Assembly (NCBI RefSeq): GCF_019059575.1
Contig: NW_024882898.1
Span: 107,844-171,843 of the forward strand
Length of the DNA: 64,000 nt
Direction: 5' to 3'
From: Amphibalanus amphitrite
Taxonomy: Eukaryota; Arthropoda; Thecostraca; Balanomorpha; Balanidae
The notes below the pieces were generated by a model that did not search any database, was not told where the DNA came from, and was given only the letters and a program-made list of their open reading frames with translations. Positions 12,728 through 64,000 of this stretch are shown here, piece by piece. Position numbers and translations under genes: made by a program. Position 1 is the first letter of the stretch, and each line of letters begins with the position of its first letter.

Positions 12728-13202
12728 CCCGCGCCGGGCCGGGGGTGTTTGAACATCCCCCTGCATTTTTTCGCCGATATCTCAAAAAACGGCGGCGCGG
12801 AGCGCCGCCGTTTTTGGCACACCTGTTCGTGCATCTTTTCCGCACATGTTGTGAAAATTTCAGGCCCAGGTCGCCCAATATCAGGTCACCAGGTCACGCC
12901 AAGTGACCTCGTCTCAGAAAAAAAGAATGCTCGTCATAGCTACAACGACTGAACGATTGCCTTGAAACTTTCAACGATTGATAATTGTAACGGTATCTAT
13001 AAAATGTATATCTCGGAATTTTAATATCGGTGACCTAAGGTCAGTTCAATTTTGCGGTCTCTCCATTACCAATGGGAGAAAATTGAAAAGTGTCTGTTTT
13101 GCACGAGCGTTAATCTAAACATTCTCAAACATCGAGATGCAGGTAAAATTGACACACTGAACCGGACGATGGCAACTGTGACCCCTCGTTATGTCCCCGA
13201 GG
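12728..13202 (-). mobile_element. TTAA-superfamily element, family 1, truncated copy
   Basis: TTAA (12724-12727) precedes CCCGCGCCGGGCC, then a hairpin GGGGGTGTTTGAACATCCCCC and the perfect inverted repeat AAAAACGGCGGCGC/GCGCCGCCGTTTTT at 12785-12815. The sequence then matches the reverse complement of the right part of the full-length copy at 25575-26749. It stops where the hAT-like hexanucleotide element begins (13203). It lies 213 bases after the DNase II stop codon. Confidence 0.85.
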
Positions 13203-13499
13203 CAGGGCTGCGGAGTCGATGGATTTACGGCGACTCCGACTCCGACTCCGACTCCGGCTTTCAAAAACCAACTCCGACTCCGACTCCGACTCCGGGCAGA
13301 AATGTCGACTCCGATCGACTCCAACTCCCGACTCCGACTCCGCACACCTGGCAGGGCTGCGGAGTCGACAGATTTTCGGTGACTCCGACTCCGACTCATG
13401 CTGGGGTTTCCAATATCGACTCCGACTCCGACTCCGGTCACAACTGTCGACTCCGACCGACTCCGACTCCGACTCCGACTCTGACTCCGCAGCCCTTTG
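13203..13499 (+). mobile_element. hAT-like MITE built of (GACTCC)n hexanucleotide arrays
   Basis: It starts CAGGGCTGCGGAGTC and ends GACTCCGCAGCCCT in inverted orientation. The interior is mostly (CTCCGA)n. A second internal start, CAGGGCTGCGGAGTCGA at about 13351, suggests two joined units. A target duplication is not seen (left flank CCCCGAGG is not repeated on the right), so one side was probably deleted. Confidence 0.65.
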
Positions 13500-13929
13500 C
13501 AGCGCTAAGTTGGCGGGCTGTAACTCTATGACGGATTATTCAAATGCCAAATGTTATAAAGCATTGAACTTGCAATGAAACAGCGATTAATATGTATTTT
13601 TGAAAGTAAATGGCGAAGTACTAATTGCGTGAACAGCATTATGACATATTTTTCCTTTAAAACATAAGGTTTTAAAGGAAACATATGTATTATTGAAATT
13701 GTGAAACATACGCTATTTTTGACATGACATATCGAGTTTTCTTTCATTTGCATTTTTTGGAATTTGGGACCAATTTTTTGAATTTTTATTTTAAAAAAAT
13801 GTTTGGCTCATTGTTAAGAAGCGTGCAAAAAATTAGGAAGGTGTTCTTTCTATAAATGTATTTATTTTGCGTCACGATAACGGTCTCGAATAGTGATTTC
13901 GGGAGGGGAGCTTACAAATGGCGTATTAA

Positions 13930-61200: not shown

Positions 61201-62850
61201 GTTCGAGCCTCATCGGGGCTCCGGCTACTTTTCCGAGTTAGGATCTGGTTTGATTTTATTGGTTGCGAGCCATTTATACGGTTCTATATCTACATGACGA
61301 TTGTCGATTGATTGATTGATTGATTGATTCATTCGTTCATTTATTACATGTCGACATTTAGCCTACGAATTGACATCCAGGATCAATCCGATCAATCTAC
61401 CATTTTCATAAGCGTATTGCCTAAATATCATGCATATATGTGGCACAAGACCTATGGTTGCCTCGATACCGTGCCAAATCACGTTTTGCACAATGCACAA
61501 GTAAATTATATTCGCTGGGTCTTCCGTGCATTGTGCTTTGCAAAAACAGGAATGCAATTGTTAAGCGACGCAAAATGTGCAATGCAGCAAGTGACCACAC
61601 AACCCGCCCAGCCCCCATGGTCCACCAACACGCCCCACACCACTCCCCAGCCCACGCCAACCACCGAGACGAGCCCCTCCCCCGCGCTGGTCTGATATGA
61701 CAGCTGGTCTACAAAGCGCTCCACCCGGCGACCCGAGCCGATGTCAAACAGCGTGGGTAGACTGTGCCGCTTCACTCTCGGGTCATGCGGCACAGCCTAC
61801 CGGTACCAGGCGGCTGCTGCCAATGCTGAGCCATAGGAACCCGGTGGATAAAGAGTAGGGGACCATCAACCTGTACACGACTGTACCCAACAACTCTGGC
61901 TAGAAAATCGCAATTATTTGGCGTCGAAAGCATCATTGCTATCCAAATGACGTCAATAAGTTTCATGTGACGTAACGAATATTTACAGCTGGAAAGCCAT
62001 TCTCGAATTGGCGTTGCGTAAGCAAACAGCTCTACGGAAGCACGATAAAGCTAAAGGTGTGTTCAGGTAATCATAGTACATTTTGTTTTATTTGTTAACA
62101 CACCGTGTCCGAAGATCGATCTAACTTTCTCTGTGGAATGCTCAAGATCACGTCAATTGTTAGTCCTGCATTTTCAAGCCCTTAGTCTCTGAGAAAAGCA
62201 GAAAATTTAGGACACTTTCTTACTGGGCCTCCATGCTTAGTGCTGAACAGCGTTATTCTAGCACGCAGCATGTGCCATTTATCTTGATTAGAAGCTCTTA
62301 TAAACAAAATTTGCCATTTTCTAGGCTAATTAAGACCCAGCGTCTGACTGGTTATTTAAGATCATTATCATTTTATTTACAGCTTGCATCACGTCTGAAA
62401 CACACATGGTGACAAACTTCAAAATACATCGAGCCAATCACACGTCACGAAAACACAAATAAACACATGTCACAAACATCACATTGCGGCGGATGTCCGC
62501 TTATATAAATACAACCCACGTGTGTACGTAACTCGACAATAGTGTAACATTAATGCGGCTATCCACATGCTTAGCAGAGTTCGAGAAGAGAGCCAATACC
62601 AAGCTAAGACGGATGGAGCGGCAACAATAGATGGATAGATGAACTTAGACCATAAACCTTTTTCAATTTTCGAAAAGACGTCTGCCAAACCACTGCATCC
62701 CAAATCCCAACCCACCAATTGCGAGCGTCCATCCCAGTGACGTCATCGAGATCGACCTACCTGCGGGATGTCGAACACTGCACAGTCGGTGAACTCCTGA
62801 CACGTGACGTCATCAGTTGACAAGGAGTCCAGCTCGCCGTCATCCATACA
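58236..62850 (-). CDS. unrecognised protein, two 3' exons (Cys-bearing segment, then long acidic domain)
   Basis: Two minus-strand exons fit in frame. Exon 62850-62761 is 90 nt, 30 codons, starts [17 protein letters not shown] and ends FDIPQ; it is flanked by CAG and GTAGGT. Exon 59186-58236 is 951 nt including the stop, and its acceptor CCCCCAG lies at 59187-59193. It opens [20 protein letters not shown], then [10 protein letters not shown], followed by about 100 strongly Asp/Glu/Gly-rich residues, a short basic [15 protein letters not shown] stretch, a second charged region and a hydrophobic C-terminus ([18 protein letters not shown]) after a Ser/Gly-rich stretch. That ending would suit a GPI-attachment signal or a tail anchor. 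Both introns are phase 0. The upstream exons and start codon are not in the window. I do not recognise the family; joining of these two exons is inferred from phase and strand. Confidence 0.55.
59238..59340. repeat. (GA)n microsatellite, (CT)n on the gene strand upstream of a splice acceptor
   Basis: About 100 bases of uninterrupted GA dinucleotides. On the minus strand this CT run lies about 45 bases before the CAG acceptor of the acidic-protein exon (59187-59189). Confidence 0.9.
59345..60389. other. intron of the minus-strand gene, no exon seen
   Basis: A/G-rich (59340-59490) then ordinary sequence. Hydrophobic or Cys/Val-rich frames on the minus strand follow from CT and GT repeats and are not supported as coding. 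Confidence 0.35.
60965..61042 (-). ncRNA. tRNA-like sequence (SINE head or tRNA pseudogene)
   Basis: On the minus strand CCGGTGTAGCTCAGCG (A-box type) is followed about 55 bases later by GGTTCGAAACC (B-box type, 60973-60983). The anticodon arm does not form a clean 5-bp stem, so a functional tRNA is doubtful. Confidence 0.5.
61136..61225 (+). ncRNA. tRNA-like sequence, opposite orientation
   Basis: GCCGG at 61136-61140 can pair with CCGGC at 61221-61225; TAGCTTGGTGG is A-box-like and GGTTCGAGCC is B-box-like. The length (90 nt) and the poor T stem argue for a degenerate copy. Confidence 0.4.
61887..62760. other. intron of the minus-strand gene, no exon seen
   Basis: No supported exon or strong repeat between the long-inverted-repeat element and the exon at 62761. 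Confidence 0.35.
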
Positions 62851-63139
62851 CTGGAAAGCAGGGGAAGCGAGTGAAAGGACGACATCGCTGACCTCCGAGC
62901 GAAGAGAGACCGGTCGTGAGATGGGAAGTACGCGCGGGAAATATTATCGAGGCAGGACCGCGTGAGTTTTGAGAATGTGAAGTTGTGAAATGCAAACACG
63001 CGATATATGTAGGGAGTAAGGCCTTGGAAACGACAAGTGTTCCGAGTTAAAAATATTTCTAGCGGCTGTAACAAGCAAACCTGAATGGACTTTTCGTCAA
63101 ACCTTTCGACCAAAAAGACTCATGCAACCTTATATTTAA

Positions 63140-64000
63140 CCCTCGCCGGACCTATTGGTTTTCTACATACGCGCCGGCCGAGGGGGGGGGGGGGGGGGGC
63201 GGGTACGACCCCCCCTCGCCGTTTCGCCCCTGGTGGAGCTAGCGCGTCGCGGAAAAAACGAGCGTGTGCGCCGTTACGAGACGCAGAGATTGGTACCCCG
63301 ATTTTAAGGTCCTAGGTCAACCGGTGACCTCTGAGGTCAGGTCAAGTGCCCCAAGGTACGGTTCAGTTTTTGGTGAATAACTTCGCAAAAAACGGCCGCA
63401 GAGCGCCGATTTTGGCAGCATCGTGTTCGTCTCGCTCAGGCGCGTCGAATGATATACTTTTTGTCCGGGTCAGGTCAACTTGGGGTGTTGACCTCAGGTC
63501 AAGGTCAGGTCAGCACCCCCAGGTCACGAAGCTGGTCGAAAGAGGTCATGTCGCATATCATTCGATTCGGCAGGTCTTCCTAAGTCCATTGGTGGCTTTC
63601 CCGACTCGCTAGCTCAATTTGATCAAGAGTTATTGACGAAAAACTAATATGATCTTGATGACGTCATAAATGACGTCAGGCAAGGTCAACATTGCAAAAG
63701 TGACGCATCTAACCTTGCAAGGAGTGCATAAAATCACGATTCTGTGTGCTTGAGATAGTTGGAGATCGTTCCCAGCGCCAGAATAGCAGTTTTCATTTTT
63801 CCCCATTGACTTATAATGGTGAGGTCACGAAAATGACCTGACCTCATATGACCTTTAGGAAAAATCCGAGATATACAAGTTGTGGGACTCATAATGGATA
63901 CTAGATCCTGCAAGTTTCATTTCCCTGTGACATCTCCTCTGGCAGTGAGGGCGTTGCGAAGTTGCGACATCTGAAGACCGTGCAGAGGTTCACTTATGAC
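63140..64000 (+). mobile_element. TTAA-superfamily element, family 3, copy 3 (cut by window end)
   Basis: TTAA at 63136-63139, then CCCTCGCCGGACC and an 18-G hairpin arm. Over 861 bp it is nearly identical to the copy at 18676-19703, with only scattered differences seen by eye. It lies upstream of the 62761-62850 exon, so it is probably in an intron of the acidic-protein gene. Confidence 0.92.

Follow-up and report, generated by a model that had tools for sequence, protein, structure and literature searches.

We analysed a 64,000-bp stretch of the barnacle Amphibalanus amphitrite genome (C1401:107844-171843; hereafter the window), which is rich in short elements that lie at TTAA targets, begin with CCC and carry a G-run, a short loop and a C-run near each end. 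These elements are very probably non-autonomous transposons of the piggyBac superfamily: long miniature inverted-repeat transposable elements (MITEs) of 0.9–1.2 kb that cut and paste at TTAA, have ends built on the plan of Trichoplusia ni (T. ni) piggyBac and are mobilised in trans by relatives with a T. ni-type cysteine-rich domain (CRD). TTAA targeting and piggyBac affiliation, which an initial annotation of the window had proposed, are confirmed because empty sites were found on a second contig and because elements carrying a piggyBac transposase elsewhere in the assembly (807.55 Mb, 2,644 contigs) share the end plan.

The initial annotation described the same kind of hairpin end twice in each element. 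The TTAA and CCC ends and the G-run/C-run hairpin are real, but the two ends are unlike. Among 57 ends (45 distinct), collected with a pattern that required a CCC or CCT start and allowed the G-run at 11–48 bp, the G-run begins past bp 11–17 in 26 and past bp 39–46 in 31, with none between. The dyad centre has a median of 27.25 in 24 distinct single ends (range, bp 23.5–36) and of 56.5 in 31 distinct doubled ends; these distance and centre counts exclude L001, L002 and single C957 pieces, which are duplicates. A terminal inverted repeat (TIR) of approximately 12–19 bp starting with CC[C/T] is present, with a CCTTC start in two single ends of family K and one end of L038. In the left-end type, the palindrome directly follows TIR bp 1–16; in the right-end type, the TIR is followed by a short insert, a partial second TIR copy (bp ~8–16 best kept) and the palindrome, 27–29 bp further inward. 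The best inner TIR copy lies 26–28 bp inward (offsets of 22–32 searched) in all 13 kinds of doubled end. Agreement of this copy peaks over bp 8–16 (10 to 13 of 13 per position), the last positions of which partly overlap the G-run, and is nearly as high at bp 3, 5 and 6. Shuffled controls rarely match the observed similarity in most kinds of doubled end, and the single-end TIR of family A strongly resembles the inner copy (1 of 2000 shuffles).

Three further observations concern the palindromes. The G-run differs in length between allelic copies of one family A element (18 at window 63182, 15 in the C957 allele), which points to slippage there. Another palindrome, CGGCGGCGC..GCGCCGCCG, is found repeatedly in several families, adjoining the single end inward, beside a GATATCTC-like motif (window ~12790, 26664 and 50483). 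A hairpin in L035 with its G-run at bp 76, returned by a looser search, falls outside the distance pattern and was set aside as probable chance.

Twelve window elements have TTAA-CCC ends and a G-run/C-run palindrome. Bounded by matching their first 16 bases to the downstream reverse complement, and with truncated and cut copies counted, they total 12,267 bp, which is 19.2% of the window, in line with the fifth first estimated, and 23.9% of positions 12728–64000. Every one of the twelve starts in the initial annotation carries the end it described, each listed start being the first C past the four-base target; this target reads ATAA at 25571 and TTAA in the 11 other elements. Five elements have strong hairpins, TTAA and matching ends on both sides (18672, 24124, 30733, 36407 and 49385); the others have a degenerate palindrome, are altered at the target, or are truncated or cut. 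Within-family identity is 79.6–99.5%, the highest value being that of an allelic pair. The elements are given below in window coordinates, together with the state of each site on contig C957. This contig is an allelic or duplicated counterpart of the window contig, the assembly seemingly holding both haplotypes or a recent duplication; long matches between the two, in a comparison that kept those of at least 88% identity, reach up to 100%.

12724..13199, minus strand: family B, truncated; single (left-end-like) end with TTAA and ~475 bp of body, without a second end; C957 also has a copy.
13926..14812, minus strand: family G, complete, 887 bp; TTAA on both sides and matching ends; doubled end right; single-end palindrome degenerate; empty TTAA on C957.
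18672..19707, plus strand: family A (CCCTCG), complete, 1036 bp; doubled end left; empty TTAA on C957.
24124..25167, plus strand: family A, complete, 1044 bp; doubled end left; empty TTAA on C957, flank identity 78.5%.
25571..26753, plus strand: family B (CCCGCGCC), 1183 bp; ATAA at both flanks; C957 site unoccupied, ATGA.
30733..31916, plus strand: family C, complete, 1184 bp; doubled end left; empty TTAA on C957.
34455..35626, plus strand: family C; one additional T separates the GGG end from the right TTAA; single TTAA on C957, with a 4-base gap in the adjoining flank.
36407..37571, minus strand: family D, complete, 1165 bp; doubled end right; empty TTAA on C957.
40035..41064, plus strand: family E; right TTAA lost; doubled end left; C957 unoccupied, with a gap across the site.
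45621..46652, plus strand: family B, decayed; right TTAA lost; single-end palindrome broken; no C957 alignment spanning the site.
49385..50570, plus strand: family F, complete, 1186 bp; doubled end left; C957 unoccupied, TTCA.
63136..64000, plus strand: family A, cut by the window end; the allelic C957 copy (76835-77881) is complete and shared.

Outside these elements, an orphan hairpin with subterminal sequence at window 8522, which is 83% alike to the family E element over 65 bp and has no TTAACC end, is probably a decayed end.

When the joined flanks of 11 window elements were aligned to C957, a single TTAA with both flanks was found for six of them (13926, 18672, 24124, 30733, 34455 and 36407), and three further sites were unoccupied and altered (25571, 49385 and 40035). 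The remaining two comprise 12724, present in both contigs, and 45621, which lacks a spanning counterpart. In the reciprocal direction, four of seven C957 elements (80644, 112297, 122195 and 124905) are missing from the window with the TTAA in place, and the element at 91553 is missing from the window and has lost one of its own TTAAs on C957; that at 76835 is shared with 63136, and 93290 gave no resolved outcome. The empty alleles could be pre-insertion sites, the alternative being seamless excision. An eighth C957 element near 80590, outside these counts, has CTAA on the one side seen and lies within tens of bases of another hairpin element. Abutting hairpin elements with one common TTAA occur at L051 1016-1019; the idea that the family F element and the family K copy at C957:93290 share one TTAA was dismissed, as the flanks differ.

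None of the window elements encodes a transposase, as first annotated: among the 116 genome-wide matches listed for the piggyBac transposase profile PF13843 (DDE_Tnp_1_7), none is on C1401. Ordinary CCC ends, for example CCCATTAGTGCCC, flank 18 of the 30 best loci as a like pair; elsewhere an end lies beyond the stretch or was unrecognised. The initial annotation had called for a search for a transposase gene with the same ends as the window elements, and genes in elements of the same end plan were found: at three of ten loci with wider flanks (C33, C44 and C1173), hairpin ends face the transposase and are unexplained by an adjoining short element. C33 holds an approximately 4.7-kb CCCGCGCC element with PF13843 at 448659-449744 in an uninterrupted frame of 666 residues, free of stops; its doubled end is 1628 bp from the transposase domain, and the single-end palindrome is visible at the L065 edge. 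The two flanks of a family K element with the same plan, C957:124905-126097 (1,193 bp), match C33:447032-447712 (99.7%) and C33:451244-451740 (99.0%), and the approximately 3.5 kb separating these matches in C33 holds the transposase domain. The simplest reading of this alignment is that the C957 element would be an internal deletion of a C33-like element, a link that holds for family K on C957 only. C257 and C431 equal C33 in PF13843 score and frame length, as far as the profile search goes. The C-terminal piece of C33, searched alone, gave no useful match in Pfam and PDB. C44 and C1173 form another transposase-bearing lineage that follows this end plan: both have PF13843, their doubled ends lie 1013 and 1019 bp and their single ends 1905 and 1904 bp from the domain, and their flanks are 98–99% alike. 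The elements described here are short, non-coding, high in copy number and, in the case of family K, derivable by internal deletion, as MITEs are, and 0.9–1.2 kb is long for MITEs.

Several other loci were rejected as partners. The G-type end adjoining C387, considered for family G, belongs to a whole 877-bp G element adjacent to the transposase. Hairpin ends near the transposases of C18, C1726 and C702 point away from them and belong to neighbours; D-like sequence lies 1.1 kb from the C702 transposase. L037 and L031 are piggyBac copies that have CCCATTAGTGCCC ends and lie within or next to hairpin elements; in L037 (7-3825), a D-type hairpin element harbours a 2,681-bp piggyBac copy from a different family.

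The CRD of T. ni piggyBac has the motif CxxC-CxxC-CxxH-CxxC, as described in PMC8086355. We found a CRD of this type in 5 of 40 transposase loci (C33, C44, C1173, C702 and L045), three of which have hairpin ends; for the other two, C702 and L045, no ends of any kind were found. The remaining 35 loci have a different Cys/His pattern, or none in the stretch read, and those with both ends seen have ordinary ends. L045, a relative by its similar CRD, aligned with the T. ni transposase (6x67; E 1e-74, residues 110–587) and with piggyBat (E 1e-26); the catalytic triad D268, D346 and D447 is kept in L045.

The view in the initial annotation that such a hairpin is no known feature of piggyBac MITEs is not supported as it stands: the left end of T. 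ni piggyBac (LE35) has a palindromic 19-bp internal repeat, with a CRD dimer at bp 17–33 and the core domain on bp 7–16, according to the account of its ends in PMC7351741, and the G-run palindrome stands at the corresponding position at both ends. The T. ni right end is described as having the same internal repeat further in, with a 17-bp insertion and a sequence duplication (PMC7351741, PMC11707139); the asymmetry of the two piggyBac ends is called enigmatic in PMC7351741, in work on one transposon. The barnacle elements resemble LE35/RE63 of T. ni piggyBac (IFP2) in TTAA, asymmetric ends, an internal palindrome and a TIR segment duplicated at one end (PMC7351741), and their transposase-bearing relatives resemble it in CRD type (as given in PMC8086355) and, in L045, in the DDD triad. 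The barnacle elements differ from it in being non-coding, in having as palindrome a G-run/C-run dyad whose length varies and whose loop is specific to the family, and in their TIR, CCCGCG or CCCTCG. The ends of T. ni piggyBac begin with CCC, and its TIR is CCCTAG.

The T. ni end plan is reproduced in other letters, which is why we read the hairpin as a CRD site. The position of the palindrome and the CRD type, as judged from sequence, agree with the T. ni CRD-dimer site, and the G-run palindrome is most likely CRD-binding. Relatives in the same genome whose transposases carry the CxxC-CxxC-CxxH-CxxC CRD would mobilise the elements in trans, a CRD dimer binding the G-run/C-run palindrome and the catalytic core presumably binding the repeated TIR segment; copies may still move. 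A more tentative suggestion is that a clade with T. ni-type CRDs kept the left/right asymmetry while the CRD-binding palindrome became a homopolymer dyad (G-run, short loop, C-run). Slippage would then change site length between copies, such that site strength and the distance from tip to site drift quickly, which could tune which copies move.

It is unlikely, in our judgement, that these are piggyBac elements in which the palindrome is a structural hairpin or G-quadruplex, owing to replication slippage or having a boundary or transcription effect, and no transposase site. Run lengths do vary between alleles (G18 versus G15 in 63136 and its C957 allele), palindrome strength varies by family, and many other piggyBac ends in this genome have no clear palindrome at that position, all of which would fit a structural role. 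However, the distance from the tip takes two values, both expected of a piggyBac internal palindrome, and the palindrome is kept across families despite different loops, also in transposase-bearing copies.

Other observations weigh against non-autonomous piggyBac elements mobilised through a CRD-bound palindrome. The C33 transposase is known from its profile match and open frame, and the single end of that element is read to ~10 bp short. C44 and C1173 may not be intact: in C44 the CRD sits in a different frame from the domain, and the C1173 frame is shorter (590 versus 667 residues). Family B is ~70% alike to C33 over 513 and 245 bp, and no window element is a direct deletion copy of C33; the CCCTCG group (families A, I and J) is 67–72% alike to the C44 lineage over 94–197 bp near the ends. 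Among the loci examined, no transposase-bearing partner was found for families C–G. The inner-copy similarity taken alone is weak in families N, A and C, where 295, 276 and 134 of 2000 shuffles equal it. L018 has a palindrome at bp 15–34 though it lacks a T. ni-type CRD; among the other piggyBac ends here, L018 and L044 alone showed a clear palindrome in that interval, each at a single end (0 and 2 of 200 shuffles), and the one in L056 is weaker (equalled by 27 of 200 shuffles), no other examined end being as clear.

Assignment to another TTAA-duplicating superfamily, Kolobok or Sola3, is very improbable. Sola3 duplicates TTAA. Kolobok, too, has TTAA target duplication in common with the window elements, but its termini are described as 5'-RR...YY-3' (PMC9587614), versus CCC here. 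For either superfamily, the linked transposase points elsewhere, as PF13843 in C33 and C44/C1173 is that of piggyBac.

Chance occurrence of low-complexity tracts next to TTAA, in a genome with many G- and C-runs, would fit the 6 of 26 G-run/C-run palindromes of the window that fall outside elements, but is already refuted as an explanation by the empty alleles and by three counts: in the window, counting both strands, 16 of 21 TTAACCC sites lead into a hairpin versus 7 of 412 TTAA sites without following CCC or CCT, no ends of this kind occurred in 40 first-order Markov sequences, and TTAACCCGCGCC occurs 34,222 times genome-wide (17,044 + 17,178) versus 60 (33 + 27) for its reversed control. 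At two ends per element, the TTAACCCGCGCC count suggests approximately 17,000 elements of this subtype, or approximately 20 Mb. In a genome where one end motif is this abundant, the doubled ends, of 13 kinds that differ in sequence, keep one two-distance plan, and such sequence-diverse ends are a natural test of what the asymmetric plan requires. C33 adds an element that carries a transposase, has new end sequences and keeps an uninterrupted frame.

Judged by published descriptions, these are probably new piggyBac families; among the listed titles and opening lines of abstracts that bear on a hairpin-ended piggyBac group, none describes G-run palindromes. PiggyBat of Myotis, also a TTAA piggyBac, repeats an end motif and has an imperfect palindrome to which two CRDs bind, but differs from the elements here in having three motif–palindrome pairs on the left, no such palindrome on the right and a different CRD fold, in the description given in PMC11707139. 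Coral CMITEs and AmiPB1 are similar in that the CMITEs are non-autonomous piggyBac elements that have CCC ends, duplicate TTAA, show an empty allele and share their TIR with an autonomous partner, whereas CMITEs are reported in PMC2872659 as ~100 bp long with weak internal similarity to the partner; no word starting with 'palindrom' occurs in the main text of that paper. Pokey and mPok of Daphnia are likewise piggyBac-superfamily elements and MITEs in a crustacean, and unlike the elements here insert in ribosomal DNA besides other sites, as outlined in PMC3849761 and PMC4912750.

The window also contains genes and open frames outside the elements. An open frame at 3454-4323 encodes a GGQFIPG-bearing repeat, 13 or 15 residues long, in 16 copies and had no Pfam match, and three Kunitz/BPTI domains lie in an open frame at 52190-53323 (minus strand). 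Two DNase II genes are present at 11259-12515 and 33047-34357 (PF03265, E 6e-85 and 2e-88), 80% alike over a 300-base DNA stretch.

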